DNA from: Synechococcus sp. CS-1328
GTDB lineage: Bacteria; Cyanobacteriota; Cyanobacteriia; PCC-6307; Cyanobiaceae
Direction of reading: 5' to 3'
NCBI RefSeq assembly: GCF_025128095.1
Contig: NZ_JAHLYT010000072.1
Location: 1 to 64,000 of the forward strand
DNA length: 64,000 nt
Shown: positions 17,044 to 42,394 of the stretch, in pieces
Numbering within the stretch: the stretch's first letter is position 1
How the letters are laid out: every line of letters starts with the position of its first letter
Program-made: the position numbers and the translations under genes
Notes under the pieces: model-generated
Told to the model about the DNA's origin: nothing
What the model saw: the letters and a program-made list of their open reading frames with translations, nothing else
Databases searched by the model: none

Positions 17044-17094
17044 TGTGGAAAAACCCCGAAAAACGGGGGAAAACAGCCAAGAACAGGGGAAAAC
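17044..17094 (+). repeat. DnaA-box-like site and GGGGAAAAC repeats upstream of guanidine operon
   Basis: One TGTGGAAAA (17044-17052) matches the cyanobacterial DnaA box. Two copies of GGGGAAAAC follow at 17066-17074 and 17086-17094, 20 bp apart, i.e. on the same helix face. A candidate -35 (TTGACG at 17120-17125) lies downstream, ahead of the riboswitch. Confidence 0.4.
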
Positions 17095-25582: not shown

Positions 25583-26047
25583 ATGGAGCGGGTTGACGCC
25601 TACCCCCGGCCGCCTCGGCTCGAGCAGTGCCAGCGGCACATCCGGGTGGAGGCTCTGGGGATGGTGTTGTGCGAGTCGCACTCCAGCCTTCGGGTGTTGG
25701 AGACCTTCCATCCACCCACCTATTACCTGCCGCCCGAGGCCGTCAACCAAGCGCTGCTGGAGCCGGCAGCTGGCTCCAGCACTTGCGAATGGAAGGGGGT
25801 TGCCCGCTATTTCGATCTGGTGGGTTCTGCGTCGCGCCTCGAGCGGGCTGTCTGGTGTTACCCCAACCCAACGGCGGCGTTTGCTGCATTGGCTGGCTGG
25901 TTCGCGCTCTATCCCGCTCTGATGGATGGGTGCTGGGTGGATGGCCAGCTGGTGCTACCCCAGCCCGGTGGCTTCTACGGCGGCTGGATCACCCCGGATC
26001 TGATCGGACCCTTCAAGGGGGATCCGCTGCATCCCGAACTGATCTGA
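25583..26047 (+). CDS. DUF427 domain protein
   Basis: 154 residues with the DUF427 beta-tent pattern: IRVEALGMVLCESHSSLRVLE, HPPTYYLPPEAV, and TCEWKGVARYFDLV. The family is widespread with no firmly assigned reaction; metal or nucleotide binding has been proposed. The chain ends with a Trp/Gly-rich segment (PQPGGFYGGWITPDL) typical of cyanobacterial members. Confidence 0.85.
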   Translation: MERVDAYPRPPRLEQCQRHIRVEALGMVLCESHSSLRVLETFHPPTYYLPPEAVNQALLEPAAGSSTCEWKGVARYFDLVGSASRLERAVWCYPNPTAAFAALAGWFALYPALMDGCWVDGQLVLPQPGGFYGGWITPDLIGPFKGDPLHPELI

Positions 26048-39946: not shown

Positions 39947-40233
39947 AGGCGGCCCTGCTGGTTGAACCGTTGGGGGAGCCTGGGGCGGAGAGCCACGCCT
40001 CCGAGAGAGGAGAGGCCCCGGGAAGCTGCAACTGTTGTTCGGCCCACTGGGCCGTGAGTGCGGCCAGCAGGCTGGCCCGGTCGCCACGAAGACGAAACAT
40101 CGGTGCGGTGCGTTGGTCGGGTTCAGCCTGGAAGGGCAGTGCGGCTCAGGTGGTACGGATGCGACGGCGTCGGGCAACCGATGGCACCGTTGCGCGCATC
40201 CCACGCACGGATCCCGCTGCCAGGCCGGAACGC

Positions 40234-40314
40234 ATGGCAAGGACTCCTTACGAGGAACCCATGGCAAGGACTCCTTACGAGGAACCCATGGCGAGGCCCC
40301 GCTGCACGGACCCC
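40234..40314 (+). repeat. 27-bp tandem repeat, two identical units and one decayed
   Basis: Units at 40234-40260 and 40261-40287 are identical, each beginning ATGGCAAGGACTCC. A third at 40288-40314 begins ATGGCGAGGCCCC and has diverged. The unit length is a multiple of three and on the plus strand reads MARTPYEEP, but the frame has no other support as a gene. Confidence 0.8.
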
Positions 40315-40347
40315 ATGACCCGAAGCCCTTGCAACTAGCAGTTGTTA

Positions 40348-40402
40348 TTGAGAATCGCTTGCAAAAAGGGAGCGTTGTTGTTTAGGTTGCGAGTCATTCG
40401 CA
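40348..40402 (+). promoter_or_regulatory. Two Fur-box-like sites upstream of the Crp-family gene
   Basis: TTGAGAATCGCTTGCAA (40348-40364) resembles variants of the Fur consensus. TGCGAGTCATTCGCA (40388-40402) is a 7-1-7 palindrome with one mismatch, the Fur-superfamily geometry. Both precede the ATG at 40448. Confidence 0.5.
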
Positions 40403-40447: not shown

Positions 40448-41041
40448 ATGAGCTTTCGTTTCCTGCCCGACGCTCCTGCCTCCAGCGTGAGGGTCTCCAT
40501 CGGCCAGACCGTGCTGCTCGATCCCGGTCTGCGCGCCGAAGGCAGCTGCATCGAGGTGCTGGAAGGGATTGCCCGCGTCTACTGCCCCTGCGAGGAAACC
40601 GAAGGCATGACCCTCGCCTTTCTCCAGCCCGGCGACCAGCTCTGCACGGATCGTCTCTGCAGCGAAGGGGTCTGCGTCGAAGCCCTGACCCCCCTGGTGT
40701 TCCGCACCGACACCGAAGCCGCCGACAGCGGTTTCGATCCGGTGAATGAATGGACCTTGCAATTGCTGCGCATCCGCCATCTCGGTAACGCCGAACAGCG
40801 TCTGCATGCCCTGTTGTCGCTGCTGGTACGGCGTCTGGGGCGGCGCTGCGGCAACTGGTGTGATCTGCCCTTTCGCCTCACCCACGAGCGCATTGCCGAA
40901 CTGATCGGCACCACCCGTGTCACCACCACCCGCCTGATCTCGCGCATCCGCCAGGCCCGGCTGTTGGAGGTGCCCAGTGGCGAATCGGTGCTGCGCCTGG
41001 CACCTGAGCTGGTGGAATCGGCACCCCTGGCGGCCGCCTGA
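40448..41041 (+). CDS. Crp/Fnr-family transcription regulator
   Basis: 197 residues. The N-terminal cyclic-nucleotide-binding-like barrel (VSIGQTVLLDPGLRAEGSC, LAFLQPGDQLCTDRLC) lacks the usual cAMP phosphate-binding RTA motif. The C-terminal HTH is LTHERIAELIGTTRVTTTRL. Several Cys residues cluster (CPCEETEG, LCTDRLCSEGVC), open to a redox or metal sensing role. It starts an apparent two-gene unit with the next small ORF. A CRP-like palindrome upstream of futA (45177-45192) is a candidate target. Confidence 0.88.
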   Translation: MSFRFLPDAPASSVRVSIGQTVLLDPGLRAEGSCIEVLEGIARVYCPCEETEGMTLAFLQPGDQLCTDRLCSEGVCVEALTPLVFRTDTEAADSGFDPVNEWTLQLLRIRHLGNAEQRLHALLSLLVRRLGRRCGNWCDLPFRLTHERIAELIGTTRVTTTRLISRIRQARLLEVPSGESVLRLAPELVESAPLAAA

Positions 41042-41339: not shown

Positions 41340-41939
41340 TCAGGCCAGCTGCGCCGGGCTGTGATGGCCCGCAGCGAGTTCTCCATCAATCAGCAGCACG
41401 GCAGCCGGCTGGTTCTGGCTGAGCCGCACCCGGCCCAGCAGATGGGCAACGTCGTTTTCCGCGTTGGTCTGGCCCTGAATCAGGGGATCGAGAAACACGG
41501 TGGTGCGTGTATCGCCGGCTCGTTCAGCCATCGCATAGATCTGTTGCAGCGATGTGGTGAGATCGGCTTCCATCTGGAAGACGGCCGTGAGGATCTCCTC
41601 AAGCCCGATCCATCCCTGCCGGGGGGCGGGGATGGCGCCCAGGGGCACCGCCTGGCCGCGGGCGACGAGATAGTCGGCAAACTGGGCCGCGTGCTGGCGC
41701 TCACTCTCGGATTCCAGCTTGAAGTAGCTGGAAAAGCCGCGCAGATCCCGCTCGCCGAACCAGATCGCCAGGGCCCAGTAGGACAGGCTGGCCTGCAGTT
41801 CCAACATGAGATGCTCCTGCAGAGCCTCCAGCAAGGAGGGCTCCATGGCCTGGGCCACGGGTCTTCGGAAGGCCCCGATGCCGATGGCTGGCAGGCTCGC
41901 GTCTGCGGCGGCGGAAAGGCTGGTCTCGGCTGGTCCCAT
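41340..41939 (-). CDS. Ferritin
   Basis: 199 residues, four-helix ferritin. Ferroxidase ligands are visible: ALQEHLMLELQASLSYW (Glu in helix A), SESERQHAAQFADYL (Glu and His in helix B), and VFQMEADLTTSLQQIY with later Glu in the C helix. It oxidises Fe2+ and stores ferric mineral. An N-terminal extension of about 30 residues precedes the fold. The ATG at 41939 was chosen; a longer frame upstream overlaps the regulatory repeats. It converges with the Crp unit and sits in the iron locus. Confidence 0.9.
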   Translation of the reverse strand: MGPAETSLSAAADASLPAIGIGAFRRPVAQAMEPSLLEALQEHLMLELQASLSYWALAIWFGERDLRGFSSYFKLESESERQHAAQFADYLVARGQAVPLGAIPAPRQGWIGLEEILTAVFQMEADLTTSLQQIYAMAERAGDTRTTVFLDPLIQGQTNAENDVAHLLGRVRLSQNQPAAVLLIDGELAAGHHSPAQLA

Positions 41940-42238
41940 GCATCGTCGTTCAGTGGAGTTCAGCGTACCCAGACCAGGCAGAGACCGGCCATGGCCCGCC
42001 CTGTGCCATTGGTCACGCGGCCAGGTGATCAGGCCTGGCCAGTGGTGAATTGCCCTGGAATCGTTCCTACGATGGCGGTCAGACATCCCGTTTTCAGGAC
42101 ACGGTTTTTAAGACACGGTTTTTAGAAACAGGTTTTCAGAAACAGGTTTTCAGAACACGCTTGTCGGAACACTCCTGACCTGAAACACGTTCTGCTTGTC
42201 CCCCCTTTTTTTCCCTCTCCTTTCCGCCATTTCCTGCC
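41940..42238. other. Intergenic region between ferritin and Cys-rich gene
   Basis: About 300 bp holding promoters for two divergent genes. The only strong signal is the 14-bp tandem array. A C6-T8-like pyrimidine run (about 42199-42215) lies just before the Cys-rich gene. Confidence 0.5.
42090..42173 (+). repeat. Array of 14-bp tandem repeats, six units
   Basis: Head-to-tail units: GTTTTCAGGACACG (42090-42103), GTTTTTAAGACACG (42104-42117), GTTTTTAGAAACAG (42118-42131), GTTTTCAGAAACAG (42132-42145), GTTTTCAGAACACG (42146-42159), and a decayed CTTGTCGGAACACT (42160-42173). There are no spacers, so it is not CRISPR. It is about 150 bp from the ferritin start and 66 bp from the Cys-rich gene start. 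Confidence 0.85.
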
Positions 42239-42394
42239 ATGTCCCAGCCCCTCGGCCCCAGTGACGATCCATGCATGCAGGCCCGAGAGCCGGTTGCGCG
42301 TGTCGCCAATCTCTGTGTCGCCAAGAAGAAAGGCTGCAAGAAGTCGAAATGCTCCAAATGGAAGGGCGGCCAGTGCCGCTGCGGCCGCGATTAG
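42239..42394 (+). CDS. 51-residue Cys-rich basic protein
   Basis: Starts MSQPLGPSDDPCMQ and its second half is ANLCVAKKKGCKKSKCSKWK then GGQCRCGRD, with six Cys and many Lys. The spacing suggests a metal-binding or disulfide miniprotein. Its TAG overlaps the futB TAA on the other strand (ttag at 42391-42394). The iron-locus position hints at an iron- or copper-linked role; unknown function. Confidence 0.7.
   Translation: MSQPLGPSDDPCMQAREPVARVANLCVAKKKGCKKSKCSKWKGGQCRCGRD

Follow-up and report, generated by a model that had tools for sequence, protein, structure and literature searches.

The ferritin locus and its conserved elements

The stretch of DNA analyzed here (the window) is 64,000 nucleotides (nts) long and comes from the 3.19-Mb genome (G000) of Synechococcus sp. 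CS-1328. It carries a gene for a ferritin-like protein and, divergent from it, a gene for a small Cys-rich protein; genes for Fur-family and Crp-family proteins lie nearby. The features of the locus, with the evidence for each, are as follows.

41340-41939, minus strand: ferritin-like protein gene (PF00210)
42002-42017, minus strand: conserved Crp-type palindrome, CGTGACCAATGGCACA (found in about 38 relatives)
42057-42067, plus strand: GGAATCGTTCC, candidate degraded remnant of a Fur box (weak); relatives have GAGAATCGTT... there
42068-42073, plus strand: candidate −10 element, TACGAT, of the Cys-rich gene (placed by its distance from the Crp-type site)
42090-42159, plus strand: core 14-bp tandem array, five units (TRF, lag identity, and unit listing)
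42160-42188, plus strand: one or two decayed 14-bp units extending the array (alignment with the congener; periodicity over 42090-42196)
42239-42394, plus strand: gene for a small Cys-rich, Lys-rich protein of 51 amino acids (aa), C terminus KKKGCKKSKCSKWKGGQCRCGRD (adjoins ferritin across Cyanobiaceae)

To establish the anatomy of the locus in relatives, we scanned the regions upstream of ferritin with regular expressions. Of the loci examined, some fifty have, divergent from ferritin, a gene for a small protein of the pattern KKKxCKxxKCSxWKGGxCxC. Across Cyanobiaceae the members of this Cys/Lys-rich family are 40 to 51 aa long; the family has no name, and the small Cys-rich protein had no match in Pfam, NCBIfam, or PDB. 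About 91 bp before the ATG of the small gene, 39 loci have a Crp-type palindrome with the consensus TGTRAYAAATGATACA (these are 38 genomes, because L092 and L111 are the same). Many relatives also have a Fur-box-like sequence, GAGAATCRATYKCA, just after or around the −10 element of the small gene. The window's Fur box is at best degraded, and its matrix score was not significant, with 97 of 300 shuffles scoring as well.

The palindrome at 42002-42017 probably does serve in the control of the locus, and the Crp-family protein encoded at 40448-41041 is perhaps the regulator that acts there. Upstream of the gene for that protein there is a Fur-box-like sequence, TTATTGAGAATCGCTTGCAA, at 40345-40364, which is essentially unchanged in the congener. 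Also upstream of the Crp-family gene, at 40227-40296, are 2.6 copies (95% alike) of a 27-bp unit that is wholly absent from the congener; judged from the two sequences, either it expanded recently here or the congener has lost it.

A degenerate 14-bp tandem array

The earlier note on this DNA had placed a 14-bp tandem array between ferritin and the Cys-rich gene, and the array is real: it occupies the divergent spacer between the ferritin start at 41939 (minus strand) and the Cys-rich start at 42239, and it was detected by TRF. Five clear units follow one another in order and without gaps, GTTTTCAGGACACG, GTTTTTAAGACACG, GTTTTTAGAAACAG, GTTTTCAGAAACAG, and GTTTTCAGAACACG. The note's count of six head-to-tail units without spacers is thus right for these five, but the sixth, CTTGTCGGAACACT at 42160-42173, agrees with the consensus at only about 10 of 14 positions; after it comes a decayed seventh, to about 42188. 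Lag-14 identity over 42090-42196 was 0.69, compared with 0.245 ± 0.049 in shuffled sequences (z = 9), and none of 2,000 shuffles reached 0.69 at any lag from 5 to 30.

The array is locally 43 to 45% GC versus about 65%, so that the unit is indeed AT-rich in a GC-rich genome. The units are degenerate, being 65 to 76% alike within a species. The partly palindromic core proposed for them did not hold up: GTTTTCAGAAACA is exact in one unit only, and 94% of shuffles of the unit consensus are at least as palindromic as the consensus itself.

Heptameric short tandemly repeated repetitive sequences (STRRs) of filamentous cyanobacteria have 7-bp units that are common to several loci. They resemble this array in being short tandem repeats in cyanobacterial spacers, but each array here has its own unit of 13 to 16 bp, and the lineage is one of unicellular picocyanobacteria. 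We rejected the array as an STRR, a name used in PMC5088731, because its best period was 14 bp; a 7-bp internal repeat was looked for and not found.

Comparison with a congener

Our within-genus comparison used one congener genome (G001), with one genome per species. The locus is syntenic there, and a 14-bp array lies at the same spot with a lag-14 identity of 0.64; the 14-bp periodicity is significant in both congeners. The congener's units have a different sequence, reading like GTTGTCATGACCCG, and its array is longer, the alignment requiring an extra 14-bp unit. Between the two species the array is 0.60 identical, versus 0.84 to 0.85 for the upstream flanks, 0.94 (15/16) for the Crp-type site, and 0.90 for the small open reading frame. 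Within a species the units are 0.76 and 0.65 identical, versus 0.60 between positional partners, so they are closer to their own array than to their partners, as is expected from unit turnover. Outside the genus, none of the relatives' spacers that we scanned had a comparable 14-bp array of at least four copies.

The array has properties of a minisatellite: head-to-tail units within the range of about 10 to 60 bp, repeated beyond chance, and differing in number between related genomes, here between species only. Like bacterial minisatellites and variable-number tandem repeats (VNTRs), it consists of short head-to-tail noncoding units whose number and sequence vary between relatives. It differs from VNTRs in that its units are degenerate and in that the genome-wide peak of periods, 13 to 16 bp, is unusually narrow.

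Other arrays in the window were mostly not shared. Three with periods of 14 to 16 bp are absent from the congener or shorter there; by position, and in alignable regions only, the congener lacks the arrays at 26036, 38196, 40227, and 50066 or has them in shorter form. A weak 20-bp array at 17050 is common to both species.

Position of the array relative to the promoter

The geometry of the small gene's promoter was taken from 29 relatives that had a hexamer with at least four of six matches to a −10 element, with ties broken toward a distance of 49 bp. The medians were 48 to 49 bp from the palindrome to the −10 element and 37 bp from the −10 element to the ATG. In both the window and the congener, TACGAT is the sole candidate hexamer near the expected position, 50 bp after the palindrome; it is only a 4/6 match, and a −35 element is not evident. 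From this hexamer to the ATG there are 165 bp in the window and 177 bp in the congener, in contrast to the 37 bp in relatives, and the extra ~130 bp is largely array.

Because the −10 element is at its conserved place but the ATG is about 130 bp farther on, mostly across array, we infer that the array most likely lies in the 5′ leader of the Cys-rich gene and not between a regulator and the promoter. The earlier note had suggested a variable repeat that tunes promoter spacing. The number and sequence of the units do differ between the two species, but an array downstream of the candidate −10 element, with the transcription start that this geometry implies, would alter the length of the leader and not the spacing of the promoter.

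An array in the leader may have a function. Its units could control how well the Cys-rich mRNA is translated or how stable it is, for instance by serving as a series of sites for an RNA-binding protein or a small RNA; the 14-bp spacing would be kept and the sequence would coevolve. The period is the same in both congeners, and the conserved promoter geometry points to the leader; however, the flanks diverge more slowly than the sequence of the units, the leader has no stable RNA fold (no excess of structure over shuffles in either species), and it had no match in Rfam. We consider such control unlikely.

Tests for protein binding

The earlier note proposed that a Fur- or Crp-family regulator encoded nearby could bind the array cooperatively, a role that would suit a spacer that adjoins both ferritin and a gene that has a Fur box in many relatives. 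We built Fur-box and Crp-type matrices from relatives and scored the array against 300 shuffled arrays. The units resemble neither motif: 299 of the shuffled arrays matched the Crp-type matrix as well or better, and 295 did so for the Fur matrix. Palindromicity is at the level of chance, conservation is low (60%), a distinct conserved Crp-type site already exists at 42002-42017, and a 14-bp spacing would turn adjacent units to different sides of the helix. We regard this proposal as very unlikely. More generally, iteron and operator arrays are also short direct repeats in spacers, but this array lacks both a conserved unit sequence and a match to a regulator motif, and no replication gene adjoins it.

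The array could also bind some other protein whose site drifts along with the units, since those of the congener carry TGTCATGAC, with TGTCATGA present three times. A second 14-bp array of the same genome, with TGTCAGAA units, would agree with this. It has about 9.5 copies at L168:3506-3638 (G000:C17:23505-23637) and fills the spacer between a permease gene, which has no full-length match in the congener, and a thioredoxin-like gene. However, that array was found by a search with a pattern that selects for the core in question, and its orientation with respect to its gene is the opposite one. In addition, the core is altered to TTTTCAGAA in the window, and many arrays with unrelated unit sequences exist. 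We regard binding by such a protein as very unlikely. A shared TGTCA core was also rejected as the signal of a regulon: apart from the arrays themselves, counts were close to those of a reversed-pattern control.

Arrays of 13 to 16 bp across the genome

The genome-wide figures come from 464 kb sampled from G000 and from portions of seven further genomes, with genes called by a crude, home-made simple predictor. The G000 sample contained 35 noncoding arrays with periods of 13 to 16 bp, about 50 times as many as shuffled DNA (6.4 versus 0.13 per 10 kb of noncoding DNA). With stricter settings, there were 23 arrays compared with 0.1 in shuffles. By extrapolation, there would be about 160 (or roughly 150) to 240 arrays in the genome. 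The densities elsewhere, per 10 kb of noncoding DNA, were 8.5 in G094, 2.2 in G105, and 2.0 in the congener, and 0 to 1 in the sampled parts of G112, G010, G145, and G084. Loss of mutS1 (mismatch repair) or SbcD was rejected as the cause of array richness because the presence of these genes does not track density.

The arrays of G000 are enriched in convergent spacers (10/30 versus 20/204, P = 0.0014). We count this preference in favor of near neutrality, because lower regulatory constraint is expected in such spacers. Among the short-period arrays sampled, the longest, at L204:7309-7455 (G000:C6), has 11.4 copies of the 13-bp unit ACTGAAGAGCTGA and is noncoding. In the noncoding arrays of G000, CTGA/TCAG is overrepresented among the units (16/27 versus 6.1 expected).

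Synechococcus sp. SynAce01, of the same family of organisms, also has many short tandem repeats, 197 of up to 30 bp (PMC6337551); the passage on them gives the count alone, and not the period, location, or turnover of the repeats. Our literature search found no description of the class of 13- to 16-bp arrays, which is not proof of its novelty.

Interpretation

Taken together, these results make it probable that the array is a nearly neutral minisatellite within the Cys-rich gene's leader, the product of a habit of tandem duplication that is found across the lineage. A 14-bp segment in the 5′ untranslated region of the divergent small gene would have been duplicated in tandem again and again, leaving degenerate units and a leader of about 160 nts in place of one of about 30 nts. 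Thereafter the array would have evolved by gain, loss, and partial homogenization of units, and its effect on the stability of the transcript or on translation is probably mild at most. It would be one of a genome-wide class with periods of 13 to 16 bp in the noncoding DNA of the lineage.

Two observations run counter to this reading. Both congeners keep a 14-bp array at this place, although most of the other arrays in the window are not shared, and so the array could be maintained; and a divergent spacer is a less typical setting for arrays of this class. As a wider and quite tentative proposal, some picocyanobacteria may have an active process that duplicates a preferred length of 13 to 16 bp in noncoding DNA, giving hundreds of arrays, some of which would be kept in leaders and retune them.

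The focus moves away from an operator specific to iron and toward a mutational habit of the whole genome, that of making short arrays with a narrow range of periods, 13 to 16 bp; such arrays are common in some genomes of Cyanobiaceae, whereas the sampled parts of others have almost none. The likely conserved control elements of the ferritin and Cys-rich locus are the Crp-type palindrome and, in many relatives, the Fur box, and across Cyanobiaceae an unnamed family of small Cys-rich proteins is linked to ferritin. The narrow peak of periods makes the cause of the preferred duplication length a question that can be tested.
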